Source: an uncultured Granulosicoccaceae bacterium (lineage in GTDB: Bacteria; Pseudomonadota; Gammaproteobacteria; Granulosicoccales; Granulosicoccaceae). Taken from it: a stretch of 64,000 bases of DNA. Of the stretch, positions 8,308 to 59,401 are shown one piece after another (position 1 is the first letter of the stretch; each line of letters opens with the position of its first letter). The DNA is taken from the NCBI GenBank assembly GCA_937951345.1, contig CALFCF010000073.1:1-64000 (forward strand), written 5' to 3'. Position numbers and translations under genes: made by a program. Below the pieces are notes generated by a model, which ran no database searches, was not told where the DNA came from, and was given only the letters and a program-made list of their open reading frames with translations.

Positions 8308-10659
8308 TCATTGCGACATGTTCTGGAAATGAAACCCGATGCGTACGCCATTTTGGGTGTTTTGCGCAAACGGTTGACCCCGGTGGCTCTCAGCGACCAG
8401 TCGCACTATGTATAGCCCCAGACCCAGATGAGGAGCGCTGCGGTGTTCCGGGGAATCATCTTTCCGAACATCCGAGCGATTGTCCGTATGCGTAAAACGG
8501 GGCTCGTTGCCAAGCGCGTTAGCGTCGATTACAGACAGCTTTGATTCGACGACCCGGTCATGACTTCGATCTGAGACCATTGGCTCAAATAGGGTATCCA
8601 ACAGCGAAGAATCCAGTCTGCTACCCTGATTTTCGACGCCCAGCGTGTACCCGTTACCGTCTGATCGATCAGCAAGTGACAGACGAATTTCACCCGTATG
8701 ATTGCTGAAATCGGCTGCATTCGAAATGAGTTTGTCGGTTGCCTGCTGCAACAACTCCGGTACCACCCGGGCAACTCCAACACCGTCGGCTACCCGACCG
8801 GTGACGGTAAAATTCGGATAGATCGATTGATAAGCTGCTACCAGAGACACTAGCCAGTCACGCAAATTCACCTGTGTGAACTCGGCCTTCTCGATACTTT
8901 GCTCTAATCGAGCGGCCTCACTCATTGAACGCAACAAACGACTTAACTGGGTGGATCCGGTTTGCGCCCGGGACACCAGCGTGCGATTGTTTTTGTCCAG
9001 CTCGTCCAGGTCAATATTTTCAAGCGACGTCTGTACAACACTCAGCGGTGTACGAAGCTCGTGCGACAGCCTAGACGATAAACCCTCAAGATACTGTGTA
9101 TATCCTCTTGAACGCTCCACCAATGTCGCAAAGTCTCGCGATAGTTCACCTATTTCATCGCGACTCCGGGAGCTCTTCACATCCGACACAAATCGTCCGT
9201 CGGTACTGACTGCTTCCCGGGCTTGACTGGATAAGCGCCGAATGCGTAATGACAACCAACTGGCAAACAGCAGCAGAGACACTGCAACCAGGATACTGAA
9301 TAAAGTCACCATACTGAAAACACGTACCAGTGCACTGCTGGTAAACGCATTGCTGCGATCTTCATTTGTCTCAAACAGTAAAAATGCTCGGTGATTTTGA
9401 GCAGCCGGTACGGCTTTCAACAGACCGGTGACGTGATCGTCAGCGTAAGTTCTGTAAGTCAGCGTTTCTTTACCTGTATCGCTTGCAGAATCTACCAGTG
9501 CATACGGCACGTCAGGCGTGAAAGGGTCATTTGTATCGGGTTGCCTGCTACGGATGATCCACTCGAAAAAACGATACAACACCGCATTAAACAGTGACGA
9601 TCGGCGCGGGTCGATCAGCCCGCTCGTCTGATTGTATTCATACAGCCGGTTAACATCCGTGCGAAGCCAACCGTCTTGATCAAATACGCGTAGCCTCGAT
9701 CCGGCCGGCACCACATCAGCGAGCAGACGCTGCAGTGTGTCGCTTGGATAGACAACAAAATTTGCACGCTTGCGGCGATTTACCGGATTCAGCATTCCTG
9801 CCCAGCGATAGTCAGACGAAAATTGCCCGAACTCCCCACCCGGGCTTACATTCGCATCCGGGTGATCGCGATCAATAACCGTAATTGCGAAAGCTCCGTT
9901 TTCGGCCAACCGCGGGATTTGTATTTCCACCTGATAACCGTTGCTGACCGTTGCCAGTGCTGCCCTTACCGACGTGTCAGACAATACGGGCTGTAAGCCT
10001 TCAAACCGCTCACCATAATACCGGGCTGTCATAGCTCCGGTAGCAACCGGACTGAAGTGTCGGAGCTTTACCTCACCGGCATCAGTATTCAGTGGTTGCC
10101 ACTGCACATCAATCTGATCACCCGTTCCGACCAGGCCTTTCGACGGATCATGAAAAATAAGCCTGTCATCAGGCACGCGGACAAACAAATAGAGATGTGA
10201 AGCACTGACTGCGACCTGCAGCTCGATTACATCGTCAGGATAGCCAATTATCCCGCTAGCGGAATCGGATGTTGCAAGTGCTTTTACAGCATCGTTTTCA
10301 TCAGATAGTTGCCGAACACGATCACCGTCTTTGAACGCAAACTGTCGAGGGGGTTGTTTCAAACCAACCCAGTCATCGTCGTATCCATCCAGGAAAATCC
10401 GATGACCTATGCGTTCGGCATAAAGAGCATCAGACGATATGTTTGCATCTGTTATACCGGAGCTGGCAGGTGTTTTGTTCAACTGGTCAAGCTCACCTGA
10501 AGCTTCAAGCAACGCTTTGCCCGCCAGTACACGCTCCAATTGACCATTAGTGCGTTCCTGCCTTAAAGCCGCATCCAATTGATGAATGGCTCTGAATGCA
10601 AACACTGGCAACGCGAGCGTCAGCGTACTGGCCACCAGTAATTGCATTCCTAGTTTCAC
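8308..10659 (-). CDS. Sensor histidine kinase of the proteobacterial dedicated sortase system
   Basis: CBM9-like extracytoplasmic region (RIFLDGYDDDWVGL...VIELQVAVSASHLYLFVRVPDD), HAMP, HisKA (SSRLSHELRTPLSVVQTSLENI), HATPase (GLGLYIVRLVAESHRG); next to RR, sortase and sortase target. Confidence 0.88.
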   Translation of the reverse strand: MKLGMQLLVASTLTLALPVFAFRAIHQLDAALRQERTNGQLERVLAGKALLEASGELDQLNKTPASSGITDANISSDALYAERIGHRIFLDGYDDDWVGLKQPPRQFAFKDGDRVRQLSDENDAVKALATSDSASGIIGYPDDVIELQVAVSASHLYLFVRVPDDRLIFHDPSKGLVGTGDQIDVQWQPLNTDAGEVKLRHFSPVATGAMTARYYGERFEGLQPVLSDTSVRAALATVSNGYQVEIQIPRLAENGAFAITVIDRDHPDANVSPGGEFGQFSSDYRWAGMLNPVNRRKRANFVVYPSDTLQRLLADVVPAGSRLRVFDQDGWLRTDVNRLYEYNQTSGLIDPRRSSLFNAVLYRFFEWIIRSRQPDTNDPFTPDVPYALVDSASDTGKETLTYRTYADDHVTGLLKAVPAAQNHRAFLLFETNEDRSNAFTSSALVRVFSMVTLFSILVAVSLLLFASWLSLRIRRLSSQAREAVSTDGRFVSDVKSSRSRDEIGELSRDFATLVERSRGYTQYLEGLSSRLSHELRTPLSVVQTSLENIDLDELDKNNRTLVSRAQTGSTQLSRLLRSMSEAARLEQSIEKAEFTQVNLRDWLVSLVAAYQSIYPNFTVTGRVADGVGVARVVPELLQQATDKLISNAADFSNHTGEIRLSLADRSDGNGYTLGVENQGSRLDSSLLDTLFEPMVSDRSHDRVVESKLSVIDANALGNEPRFTHTDNRSDVRKDDSPEHRSAPHLGLGLYIVRLVAESHRGQPFAQNTQNGVRIGFHFQNMSQ

Positions 10660-10665
10660 TGCAGG

Positions 10666-11376
10666 CTACGCATCCACCAGCCAGCGATATCCCATACCGT
10701 AGACAGTTTCAATGCGCGAAAAACTACTGTCTACCTGATGAAACTTACGCCGAATACGCTTGATGTGAGCAGTGATAGTCTGATCATCAAGTACCACCTG
10801 TGCGGCATCCATTAATTGCTGGCGTGTCTTTACATGTCCCGGGTAACGTGCAAGTGCATGAACCAGCCAGAATTCCGTAACCGTCAGCGCGACTGTTGTC
10901 GATTTCCAGCTGGCGTGTAAGGAGTCAACATCCAGTCGTAAATGTCCGATCTCTGTAAAGACAGCTGCGTCAGCAGGTGCCAGCCGGGCAGCTGTGCGTT
11001 TCAGCAACGCAGTTACGCGCGCGCACAAATGCGCCAGGGAAATATCTTTAGTCAGATAGTCGTCTGCGCCCAGTCGTAGACCCGAAATAGCATCAAGCTC
11101 ACTGTCACGAGCGGTTAGAAACAGAATTGGCAACACGGCGGAACGGGCACGCAATTGCTGGCACAACGAAAACCCCGCCTCCGGGTCTGCACCCAGACCG
11201 ACATCGATCACGATGAGGTCAGGCAGGCTTTGCTCAAAGCGCGCAAGAACACTTTCAGGGTTGGAAAACGCTTCGACTCGATAGCCTGCCTTGCTCAGTG
11301 CGATCTCGTAATTCGCCCTTAGATCGGGGTCGTCCTCTACGATTGCAACCAGCTGCTTGCTGTCATGCTCTGTCAT
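10666..11376 (-). CDS. OmpR-family response regulator of the dedicated sortase system
   Basis: Receiver domain (VAIVEDDPDLRANY...DLIVIDVGLG...PILFLTARDS) plus winged helix (VLDDQTITAHIKRIRRKF...RIETVYGMGYRW). Confidence 0.92.
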   Translation of the reverse strand: MTEHDSKQLVAIVEDDPDLRANYEIALSKAGYRVEAFSNPESVLARFEQSLPDLIVIDVGLGADPEAGFSLCQQLRARSAVLPILFLTARDSELDAISGLRLGADDYLTKDISLAHLCARVTALLKRTAARLAPADAAVFTEIGHLRLDVDSLHASWKSTTVALTVTEFWLVHALARYPGHVKTRQQLMDAAQVVLDDQTITAHIKRIRRKFHQVDSSFSRIETVYGMGYRWLVDA

Positions 11377-11492
11377 TCACGTGTCCAACGGAACAAGCCG
11401 GAGCTGTGTGTACAAATTGGTAAAAATCACGGTCAGATCTCAAATTTGCACCGTCTGCGCCTGGTAATCGACTGCCACTGAAACAGGCTTGT

Positions 11493-11509
11493 CATAATTC
11501 ATCATAATT
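11493..11509. promoter_or_regulatory. Candidate response-regulator binding site (tandem CATAATT repeats)
   Basis: CATAATTcatCATAATT, 7-bp direct repeats with 10-bp spacing, in the divergent region about 90 bp upstream of the sortase target start. Confidence 0.3.
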
Positions 11510-11595
11510 GCTCAGAGGATAGTCTCATTCGATCCACTGTATTGGCCAAATAAATTGCTTTCATTGCAGTGTGGCGAACAACGAATGAGAGATCA

Positions 11596-13905
11596 ATGAC
11601 AATACAGGCACCTGGCAACGCACGCAAACTGGACACATCGATTAGCGACGCGGCAAACAGTAAAATCATTACCGGTTATCAGCTCACGCGAGCTGACAGC
11701 AGCCAACTCATAGCACGCAGTCTGGGTTTGCTTATTCTACAGATAATTCTGGCTGTTGCGTTCATGCAGAACGCCGACGCAAACACCGTCGAACTACACG
11801 ATAATTTAAATTCATACGCTAGCTCCGAGGTGGACGATCGGGTTGAAACCGGTACTTTATGGCTTCGCCATTCGGATGGCGCGGTTCAAGCACCACTGCT
11901 TAACAGCAAGGTAGATGCGGTAGTCAGTGGGATCCTTGCAAAGGTCACCTTGTTCCAGGAATTTCAGAATCTATCCAGTCATCTCATCGATGGGCGTTAC
12001 GTTTTTCCATTGCCGGGGTCAGCCGCAGTCAAAGCTGTCAGGATTAACATCGGAGACAGGGTGATCGAGAGCGTAATCCGGGAAAAGCAACAGGCTGAGC
12101 AAATATTCGAACAAGCAAAAGTATCAGGACATACAACCAGCCTTATAAAGCAAAAACGCGAAAATCTATTCTCGATCAATCTCGCCAACATTGAGGGTAA
12201 TGCCAAAATTCATGTAGAAGTTGATTACATAGAGACCGTGACTGTTGTGGACAATGTATATGCTCTGGTGTTACCACTGACCTTCATACCACGCTACACC
12301 AACACGTTGGTGGCGGAGTCTGACAAAAATATACTAACTCGCCCGCAACTGAAAGCAACCCGCGCAAATCAGCTGAAAACACATACTTTCGATATCAATC
12401 TGTTGCTTGTCACTGATTTACAGTTAGGTGAGCTCACAAGCCCCAGTCATGAGATCGTCTATACCCCGGTCACGGAAGGTTATCAGATCAATCTGACGCG
12501 CCAAGCGCTAATGGACAGAGATTTCGAACTACGTTGGTCGTGGCAGGTTCCGTTCAGACCAGCCAGCAGTGTCTACACAGAGACTATTGACGACACTGTT
12601 TACATGCTGGGGCTTGTGAATCCGCCATCTGAAAGAAATCCAACAACGCGTAAATCAGCAAACAATTACCTGTCGAGGGAATTAGTCATTGTTGTAGACA
12701 CGTCAGGTTCAATGGACGGTGCCCCGATACGTACTGCAAAAAATGCGCTGCAGGCAGCAATCAACGGTTTGGATGCAGGCGACTATTTTAATTTGGTCCG
12801 CTTCTCGACAGATACAGACTCTCTCTTTTCAGCTTCACAGCCTGTGACTGCAAAAAATGTCCACCAGGCACGCCGTTACATCAACTCACTGGATGCAGGC
12901 GGTGGTACAGAAATGCTGGAGGCTGTTGAGTTTGCACTGGATACAGAAAGATCTCCGCAGCACACACTAAAGCAGATCGTTTTTATTACCGATGGCGCAA
13001 TTGGTTATGAAAACCACGTCACTAACCATGTAGCAAATCATCTGGGTCGCGCCCGTTTATTTACGGTTGGCATAGGCCAGGCACCCAATCGCGATCTGAT
13101 GAAGAAGCTGGCCGTAGCTGGTAGAGGCACGCATACTTTCATTCGAGATATAAATGCTGTCGAATCACAAATGAATAGGTTGTTCCGTGGTATTGAGCGA
13201 CCTGTCATGCGCGACATAGAAATAGAGTGGCTCGGAGAACCGGCAGACATGGCACAGGAAAGTCTACGCGATTTACATGACGGAGAACCGTTGTTGTTTG
13301 CCGCTAAACTTCACCCCGGGACTCTTGGATTTATCGTAAGCGGTACACTCGCGGATCAACCGTGGCAGGAAACCGTCTATTTCCAGCAACGTTCAGGCAC
13401 AGAAATTCGCGCAAAAAATGCTGCAAACCCGGTAGAGCCGTTTGACCAGAGTGGGATCGCCACCATCTGGGCCCGCCAACGAATCAGTAATTTACTAGCC
13501 CGATACAATGCGCTGCCGTCAATACCCGCTAATCAACTCTCGCTTACTGGAATAACGCTCAGTGAACCAAAAAACACGCATTTTGCAACTCGGCAAAATA
13601 TCAAACATCGTGTTACAAAGCTCGGGATAACTCATAAGCTTTTGACACCATTTACTGCATTCGTCGCCGTTGATAACACTAAAATCAATGAGAGGAGCGC
13701 CAATACCCCTGCCACCGAAGTAGCGAATCTTGTACCTGCCGGTAACTTGCAAATCATTCCGATGCCGCAGACTGCAACGGCTATTGATTTATTCAAACTA
13801 ATTTCGTTTATTTCGTTTTTAATCGCACTGATCGCCGGATTATGTCTGTTTTATCTCGAGAAGCACAGCTTCAGTTCGGTCAGTAGCACGGAGTGTGGCG
13901 CATGA
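11596..13905 (+). CDS. Sortase target protein with VIT and von Willebrand A domains
   Basis: VIT domain (SGILAKVTLFQEFQNLSSHLIDGRYVFPLP), MIDAS motif DTSGSMDG, C-terminal MPQTAT followed by a hydrophobic helix. ORF opens at 11569; ATG 11596 follows a GAGAG-type RBS. Confidence 0.92.
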   Translation: MTIQAPGNARKLDTSISDAANSKIITGYQLTRADSSQLIARSLGLLILQIILAVAFMQNADANTVELHDNLNSYASSEVDDRVETGTLWLRHSDGAVQAPLLNSKVDAVVSGILAKVTLFQEFQNLSSHLIDGRYVFPLPGSAAVKAVRINIGDRVIESVIREKQQAEQIFEQAKVSGHTTSLIKQKRENLFSINLANIEGNAKIHVEVDYIETVTVVDNVYALVLPLTFIPRYTNTLVAESDKNILTRPQLKATRANQLKTHTFDINLLLVTDLQLGELTSPSHEIVYTPVTEGYQINLTRQALMDRDFELRWSWQVPFRPASSVYTETIDDTVYMLGLVNPPSERNPTTRKSANNYLSRELVIVVDTSGSMDGAPIRTAKNALQAAINGLDAGDYFNLVRFSTDTDSLFSASQPVTAKNVHQARRYINSLDAGGGTEMLEAVEFALDTERSPQHTLKQIVFITDGAIGYENHVTNHVANHLGRARLFTVGIGQAPNRDLMKKLAVAGRGTHTFIRDINAVESQMNRLFRGIERPVMRDIEIEWLGEPADMAQESLRDLHDGEPLLFAAKLHPGTLGFIVSGTLADQPWQETVYFQQRSGTEIRAKNAANPVEPFDQSGIATIWARQRISNLLARYNALPSIPANQLSLTGITLSEPKNTHFATRQNIKHRVTKLGITHKLLTPFTAFVAVDNTKINERSANTPATEVANLVPAGNLQIIPMPQTATAIDLFKLISFISFLIALIAGLCLFYLEKHSFSSVSSTECGA

Positions 13906-14558
13906 ATACCACTGTCGATTTGCCTAAGGTACGTTTACGACCGTCCAAGCTGTTAATTGTTTCTGTGATAGCCGTTACGGCTTCGGTAGCTGTTTTCTTC
14001 GCGTGGCAGGCAGGCCAAATTGCTGCCAAAGCGTATCTATCGCAATGGCTTTTACAGATGAACTGGCAACAACGTTTATCAACCGGACACAGCGTTAGAC
14101 CCTGGCCAGGGCTAGACAGTTATCCCGTGGCTCGGCTGTTTACCGAAGAAAACAAGCGTGGGACCGTGGTACTTGATAATCCGTCAGGACAGGCACTGGC
14201 ATTTGCGCCGACGCTGATCAGTCCGATACCAACGAATCACAAGGATTCACCCTCCGGTACGCAAGCGAGAATCACTCTCAGAGCCGAGCAAACCGTCGCT
14301 ATTGCCGGACACCGAAATACTCATCTGGCCTTTCTCGAAGGGGTCGCTATCGGAGACCGCGTGGGCCTGGAGACCAGCGACGGTACGAGGCGTCTATACC
14401 AGGTCAACGATCACTTTATTGTCGATACACGGAGCGAGGATCTGTTGATTGACACCAATTGGCAGGGGTTGTTAATGATCACCTGCTATCCTTTCGACAC
14501 TATTGATGCAAATGGCCCACTGCGCCTGGTCGTATACGCAGCTCCGGTAGCGAGGTAA
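13893..14558 (+). CDS. Class GN-type sortase
   Basis: N-terminal TM anchor; VAIAGHRNTHLAFLEG and LLMITCYPFD catalytic His/Cys motifs; overlaps the target gene end. Confidence 0.93.
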   Translation: MWRMNTTVDLPKVRLRPSKLLIVSVIAVTASVAVFFAWQAGQIAAKAYLSQWLLQMNWQQRLSTGHSVRPWPGLDSYPVARLFTEENKRGTVVLDNPSGQALAFAPTLISPIPTNHKDSPSGTQARITLRAEQTVAIAGHRNTHLAFLEGVAIGDRVGLETSDGTRRLYQVNDHFIVDTRSEDLLIDTNWQGLLMITCYPFDTIDANGPLRLVVYAAPVAR

Positions 14559-14734: not shown

Positions 14735-15307
14735 ATGCGAAAACGGATCGATAAAACTGATAAAAACTATCCTGCAAACCGTGTGCAACTCAGAATCAAA
14801 GCACTGCCCTCAACATCGCCACGTAAAGAGCAACAGTACTACGGACTCTTTTTTATAGTTTTCATATTGGCTTGCATCATCGTTTTTAGTCGTCCAACTC
14901 ACGCATCTGAGTGTGCGGTCAAGCCAACCACCGATGTTCAACCCGCTGAGGTTGTAAGAACCGTTATAGATGCACTCAGGAAAAATTCAGAGGCAGACAA
15001 AGGTATCGAACAGGTGTATTGCTTTGCTGCACCGTCAAACAAACGCATAACCGGCCCGCTAGAGCGCTTTACCAGGATGATCAAAAGTGGCTACGGTGAC
15101 ATGCTGAATCACTTCGCCAGCGAGTTTGAGCCAATCTCGATTGTTGATAGTGTCGCTCGACAGCGAGTCTGGCTCGAGACGGCCGATGGCAAGATTGTTG
15201 GCTACCTGTTTCTGCTGGGTAAACAATCCAGTGGGGAGTTCAACGATGTGTGGATGACAGAAGGCGTTTATCGCATTGATCCATCAACGCGATCTCGCAG
15301 CATTTAG
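14735..15307 (+). CDS. DUF4864 domain-containing protein
   Basis: TM segment then VVRTVIDALRKNSEADKGIEQVYCFAAPSNKRITGPLERFTRMIKSGYGDMLNH. Confidence 0.7.
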   Translation: MRKRIDKTDKNYPANRVQLRIKALPSTSPRKEQQYYGLFFIVFILACIIVFSRPTHASECAVKPTTDVQPAEVVRTVIDALRKNSEADKGIEQVYCFAAPSNKRITGPLERFTRMIKSGYGDMLNHFASEFEPISIVDSVARQRVWLETADGKIVGYLFLLGKQSSGEFNDVWMTEGVYRIDPSTRSRSI

Positions 15308-58801: not shown

Positions 58802-59401
58802 ATGAGTCTGCTGGTTGATAGCCGTCATGTCCATTCACTCAAGCAAAATGTATTCGGAGTAGCGGCTTTTGTCGGGTTCATCTGGCTGATTTATATACTG
58901 GATTTGCTGATCCCTTTTCTGCCGTTTGAGCACCTGGGACTCATCCCACGTTCTCTGCGAGGAATTGACGGTATTTTCACAATGCCGTTTTTACACAAGG
59001 ATCTGGCACACCTGATCAGCAATACAGTACCACTTGCAGTTACCCTGTTGTTGCTAGCAGGTTCACGAGCCAACAGCGCGGTGATTGTCGCGTCTATTGT
59101 ATTACTTGGCGGCCTGCTACTTTGGCTACTTGGTCGTGAGGCGCGTCATATCGGCGCAAGCGGTTTAGTCTTTGGTCTGGTGGCATTTCATCTGTGTGCT
59201 GGAATTTTCGAGAAGCGTCTGGTGCCGCTCGCAATCGCATTGGTTGTCGGTATTTTTTATTCAACAACACTTATTCGTGGAGTACTACCGTTTCAAGCCG
59301 GCGTATCCTGGGACGGTCACCTGTTCGGCGCTATTGCCGGTGGTCTGGTGGCTTTCTCCACTGCGCGGGAATTGAAAATGCAAACGAGCGATCTGAACTG
59401 A
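58802..59401 (+). CDS. Rhomboid-family intramembrane serine protease
   Basis: HLISNTVPLAVTLLLLAGS; HIGASGLVFGLVAFHLCAG (Ser); SWDGHLFGAIAGGLVAF (His). Confidence 0.92.
   Translation: MSLLVDSRHVHSLKQNVFGVAAFVGFIWLIYILDLLIPFLPFEHLGLIPRSLRGIDGIFTMPFLHKDLAHLISNTVPLAVTLLLLAGSRANSAVIVASIVLLGGLLLWLLGREARHIGASGLVFGLVAFHLCAGIFEKRLVPLAIALVVGIFYSTTLIRGVLPFQAGVSWDGHLFGAIAGGLVAFSTARELKMQTSDLN

Follow-up and report, generated by a model that had tools for sequence, protein, structure and literature searches.

The 64,000-nucleotide stretch analyzed here, referred to as the window, comes from an uncultured marine Granulosicoccaceae bacterium and carries, in a Gram-negative setting, a sortase gene next to a candidate substrate gene and a two-component system (TCS), which raises the question of which protein is anchored, to what, and under whose control. 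The role of class GN (Gram-negative) sortases in Gram-negative organisms was called unknown in 2023 (PMC10581121), and our literature search found no experimental study of these enzymes and none on the dedicated sortase system by name, on PdsR, or on a Granulosicoccus sortase. The proteobacterial dedicated sortase system (PDSS) itself is already known by bioinformatics; new here are a conserved operator, an argument from class D sortase chemistry, and a comparison with a rhombosortase route in the same genome. Read from sequence, the locus was shown to hold a sortase, a single target, a TCS, and, between them, a conserved direct-repeat box. The account that we favor, and consider probable without holding it firmly, is that of a divergent, self-contained dedicated sortase system that is controlled through this box and anchors its target likeliest to m-DAP.

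In terms of gene layout, a response regulator (RR) and a histidine kinase (HK) form an operon on the minus strand, divergent from a VIT/VWA target gene that overlaps the sortase gene on the plus strand. The OmpR/PhoB-type, PdsR-like RR (10666 to 11376, minus strand) has its stop codon 6 nt from the start of the gene for the PdsS-like sensor HK (8308 to 10659, minus strand). The target ORF spans 11569 to 13905 and the sortase ORF 13893 to 14558, both on the plus strand; the true target start is probably the ATG at 11596, with GAGAG in front of it, and that of the sortase is probably the ATG at 13902, in which case the two genes (11596 to 13905 and 13902 to 14558) overlap as ATGA. The target consists of a long N-terminal region followed by a signal peptide, a VIT domain (11905 to 12228), a VWA domain (12679 to 13140) with a MIDAS-type DTSGSM motif, and a C-terminal sorting signal (13762 to 13866, plus strand), in which MPQTATAID is followed by a transmembrane helix and a short EKH tail, while the class GN sortase begins with an N-terminal membrane helix. 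All four genes named in the preliminary description were present as ORFs at their coordinates, the motifs quoted there (GHRNTH, TCYPF, and the target tail) were found, and Pfam backed each domain call, with HATPase/HisKA in the HK, Response_reg/Trans_reg_C in the RR, VIT (98.8) and VWA_3 (87.1) in the target, and Sortase (53.4) in the sortase. A scan for sigma-70 promoters gave no match above chance. The downstream DUF4864 gene (14735 to 15307) was considered as a further component and rejected, as it adjoins folD in a related genome (G036, locus L048), ∼7 kb from the sortase pair.

Membership in the PDSS was assessed with NCBIfam models. For all four proteins the best match is the corresponding PDSS model, and none of the four reaches the curated cutoff: the HK scored 376.2 bits against TIGR03785 (cutoff, 612.2; next family, 103), the RR 331.4 bits against TIGR03787 (cutoff, 335.7; next family, CreB at 174.5), the target 519.6 bits against TIGR03788 (cutoff, 551.65), and the sortase 140.8 bits against TIGR03784 (137.1 in the genome search; cutoff, 158.25; next family, 47.4). 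The check proposed earlier, that sortase and target should score above the cutoffs of their TIGRFAM models, therefore failed, and despite the wide margins to the next families the locus is better described as a divergent version than as a formally passing member. The sortase of a same-genus genome (G001) scored 173.8 bits, and class GN sortase matches occurred in 40 of 95 genomes of relatives, above the cutoff in 37. In the sortase tree, the window sortase lay, with an SH-aLRT of 94 (not starred), among the class GN sortases of the Granulosicoccaceae, and its end branch was long (2.2). Its His140, Cys198, and Arg211 (numbering of the 221-aa ORF) were invariant in alignments of 15 and 47 rows, and the target combines VIT, VWA, and a C-terminal LPXTG-like signal beside a sortase gene, as the family is defined. 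Judged by tree, synteny, and sorting signal, the system is a divergent Granulosicoccaceae version of the PDSS. The system type was thus named correctly in kind, given four best model matches, a layout common in other genomes, and one sortase with one tailed target; "complete" holds for the four components and does not extend to PdsO (TIGR03789), a fifth part of some systems, which is absent from this genome (best match, 84 bits; cutoff, 152.2).

To place this layout in a wider context, 85,462 species genomes were scanned, yielding at least 80 loci. The target-sortase pair was near universal among the loci listed, and the divergent RR-HK operon adjoined it in most of the gammaproteobacterial ones; Nitrospira, Alcanivorax, and some other loci lacked it. 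PdsO lay inside the cassette in some of the listed loci and adjoined the unlinked TCS in several genomes (L182 and L186 to L189). The pair also occurred in bins labeled Nitrospirota, Deltaproteobacteria/Myxococcota, and Acidobacteriota, so that the earlier assignment to marine Proteobacteria proved too narrow. Among the Nitrospira bins with class GN sortase-target pairs (L098, L117, L131, L136, L151, and L174), the five that were checked, namely all except L174, had neither a PDSS regulator anywhere in the genome nor, upstream of the target, a box. A same-genus genome (G002, 91% complete) lacked both the sortase and the PDSS RR, and the cassette may therefore be sporadic even within a genus. 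In another genome (G079, locus L051), a class GN-like sortase without an adjoining target reads LVRREG instead of GHRDTH, and this enzyme is possibly inactive. In several Granulosicoccaceae, a conserved ORF of ∼553 aa is divergent from an unlinked PDSS regulator (L178, L180, L181, and L185).

The box between the two operons, which the preliminary description did not notice, is a 22-bp direct repeat, YCAYAATTnRYCAnnATTnnYC, with a 10-bp period; it lies at 11492 to 11513 (plus strand), before the target gene, where it reads TCATAATTCATCATAATTGCTC, and it is common to RR-target intergenic regions. Across 54 loci, a 22-column matrix gave a mean of 21.5 bits, compared with 9.9 to 10.6 in dinucleotide shuffles, and 41 of the 54 loci, all of which belong to the in-sample set, equaled or exceeded the maximum of the shuffled null. 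Circularity was removed by a held-out matrix derived from 15 sites, none of which came from Granulosicoccaceae; on the window it ranked the site at 11492 first among ∼128,000 positions (25.1, with the next at 14.8), and in 15 of 16 Granulosicoccaceae loci (the exception being L053) its top match of the whole locus lay by the target promoter. Pairs of half-sites YCAnnnTT 10 bp apart numbered 18, compared with 0.05 expected, an arrangement in tandem at about one helical turn, as in operators of the OmpR family. This conserved box and its held-out support are new.

If the box belonged to the PDSS regulator, loci without a neighboring TCS should keep it only where an RR exists elsewhere in the genome. 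Such loci divided into 10 with box and RR, 1 with the box only (in a genome that is 74% complete), 3 with the RR only, and 13 with neither, where a box was counted at P < 0.01 and an RR at >300 bits; the Fisher P value of 3e-4 is optimistic because these thresholds were fixed after the scores were seen and because most of the ten loci come from one bacterial family, whose loci are not independent. Moreover, the box is also present at several of the unlinked TCS loci (L182, L183, L184, and L188). From this co-occurrence, we infer that the box is the operator of the PDSS regulator. The genome contains one exact box, and a one-mismatch search added one more (C70:2584), which is the level of a reversed-pattern control; the box probably lets the regulator control this system only, and the data suggest a PDSS regulon consisting of this one cassette. 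The box could instead be a Pho box bound by PhoB, which would make the system part of a phosphate-starvation gene set and the neighboring TCS incidental. The box resembles Pho boxes of the CTGTCATA type, and the RR is a relative of PhoB/CreB; however, Pho-box half-sites are 11 bp apart rather than the 10 bp found here, the box tracks the PDSS regulator whereas PhoB is widespread, and a Pho regulon would have many copies instead of one exact copy in the genome. We regard this explanation as very improbable. As the putative operator of the PDSS regulator, the conserved box offers a testable DNA site.

What the kinase might sense was approached by structure prediction. The periplasmic part of the HK (residues 28 to 448; AlphaFold pLDDT 79) gave a Foldseek match to the CBM9 structure 1i82 (E value, 6e-6; TM score, 0.68 by target), and among 37 homologous sensors Pfam detected CBM9_1 in 10 and dCache_1 in 7, neither of them being detected in the HK of the window. 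The sensor region thus looks like a combination of CBM9-like and Cache-like domains, and the modeled fold suggests that the signal may be sugar-like. The same HK has an insertion of ∼45 aa in the ATP lid of its HATPase domain (residues ∼708 to 752) that none of the eight aligned relatives has, not even the same-genus homologue (L049).

Concerning the anchoring chemistry, the MPQTATAID signal is predicted to be cleaved at T|A. The consensus of target tails across class GN loci is PxTAT, with PATA, PQTA, and PRTA common; the P1 residue is Gly (PQGS/PQGA) in most Granulosicoccaceae, while Thr is kept in the window and in one other genome (G007). On the tree (tails L012 to L054 and L096 to L175), P1 underwent at least 12 Thr/Gly changes; sortase residues showed strong raw associations with this switch, yet there were just 4 supported independent pairs, too few to tie any sortase residue to it. 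The target tail has a weak basic cluster, which counts against the favored account. By profile, the nearest PDB sequence to the sortase is the class D sortase of Bacillus anthracis (2ln7; E value, 7e-20), and the runners-up in NCBIfam are class D models, including the "LPxTATN-specific" SrtD, although the 47.4 bits reached fall short of the class D cutoff of 165. The AlphaFold model (pLDDT 89.5) has a sortase fold by Foldseek and an N-terminal membrane helix, and class C, E, and A structures rank alongside class D in this comparison, which does not single out class D. Gammaproteobacterial peptidoglycan contains m-DAP. Given that class D is the nearest class to the sortase by sequence, this compound would be the likeliest acceptor, by analogy with class D enzymes, and the likeness to class D thereby turns into a definite prediction. 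For instance, SrtC of B. anthracis, whose expression is governed by the TCS SctRS, cuts LPNTA at the T-A bond and has m-DAP as its acceptor (PMC3297441), while SrtD of Clostridium perfringens prefers LPQTGS (PMC4498605). Counting against such an anchor, an m-DAP-linked protein would remain periplasmic, which fits an adhesin role poorly.

Whether the sortase serves this target alone was examined in the 4.49-Mb draft genome (95.5% complete), in which two models detected a single sortase. The LPXTG model TIGR01167 missed even the true target in the genome search and was too insensitive; therefore, a custom profile of the sorting tails of 22 relatives was used, which recovered the target at an E value of 3.9e-12. 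The next-best match (E value, 0.15) spans the membrane several times and is MFS-like, and it was rejected as a second target. A single sortase and a single tailed protein genome-wide bear out the dedication proposed earlier, for which further tailed proteins elsewhere would have been the counterevidence. The same genome encodes a second VIT/VWA protein (L033; G000:C15:98432-100276) that ends in GSGNSGSGSASWLLLISGLLMLVCRRFTQALRR, read by eye as GlyGly-CTERM-like, together with a rhombosortase (152.6 bits; cutoff, 84), so that two kinds of tail occur on one protein family within a single genome. Across genomes, the VIT/VWA family is known to swap LPXTG, GlyGly-CTERM, and PEP-CTERM tails (PMC3237569, the GlyGly-CTERM paper). 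A rhomboid-family match within the window (58973 to 59353, plus strand) is probably an ordinary rhomboid, since it scored 38 bits against the rhombosortase model, whose cutoff is 84.

This paralogue, on a rhombosortase route, allows two anchoring chemistries to be compared within one genome, and it also lends weight to a different fate for the sortase target, namely transfer to the amine of phosphatidylethanolamine followed by export to the cell surface through the type II secretion system (T2SS), as for rhombosortase substrates. Consistent with this, the GlyGly-CTERM protein VesB of Vibrio cholerae is linked to a glycerophosphoethanolamine moiety before the T2SS exports it (PMC6219818), and GspD-family secretins were found in all 40 sampled sortase-positive genomes. 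Such matches were also found in 52 of 55 sortase-negative genomes, which makes T2SS co-occurrence uninformative on surface export; moreover, we know of no sortase that uses a lipid amine, and the class D relatives use m-DAP. We therefore judge the lipid route unlikely. The sortase could also act as a protease only, freeing the target from its membrane helix into the periplasm, perhaps to non-covalent OmpA-like partners such as PdsO elsewhere. PdsO, which is OmpA-like, adjoins the TCS or the target in some genomes, and no report that we found shows an attachment partner; on the other side, the absence of PdsO here and the intact His/Cys/Arg set, which is the one used by transpeptidases, leave release by proteolysis decidedly unlikely. 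We give still less credence to a broader proposal, in which class GN sortases would constitute a covalent anchoring route of diderms that carries VIT/VWA proteins to the surface by lipid-amine transfer and T2SS export, operating alongside rhombosortase within one cell and under a one-operator, one-target regulon.

Under the favored account of a box-controlled system with peptidoglycan anchoring through m-DAP, the CBM9-like and Cache-like periplasmic domains of the HK would sense a signal in the envelope, possibly a ligand resembling a sugar, and the phosphorylated RR would bind the box and activate transcription of the target-sortase pair and perhaps of its own operon as well. Sec would export the target, whose C-terminal helix would keep it in the inner membrane, whereupon the membrane-bound sortase would attack MPQT|A, forming a thioacyl intermediate on Cys198, and pass the target to an amine, likeliest that of the m-DAP side chain of lipid II or peptidoglycan, as SrtC does. 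Once anchored, the VIT/VWA protein would rely on its MIDAS for its function, which could be that of an adhesin or an envelope scaffold.

Compared with known systems, the locus is nearest to the PDSS (TIGR03784/03788/03785/03787/03789), with which it shares the gene order, the divergent TCS, the overlapping target-sortase pair, and a VIT/VWA target with a PQTA-type tail; it differs in that all four proteins score below the cutoffs, PdsO is lacking, the sortase sits on a long branch, and Thr is retained at P1 of the signal (MPQTA), a position occupied by Gly (PQG[SA]) in most of the bacterial family to which it belongs. With the class D SrtC/SrtD of B. anthracis (2ln7) and BasI/BasH, it has in common the nearest solved sequence by profile, an LPNTA-type signal, and TCS control, whereas that system is Gram-positive, sporulation-specific, and serves more than one substrate, and the window sortase stays well below the class D cutoff. 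Finally, rhombosortase/GlyGly-CTERM systems resemble it in their C-terminal motif, helix, and basic tail, which the VIT/VWA paralogue of this genome also bears, but they depend on an unrelated rhomboid protease, recognize another motif, usually have many targets, and confer a modification reported to be of lipid type in V. cholerae.
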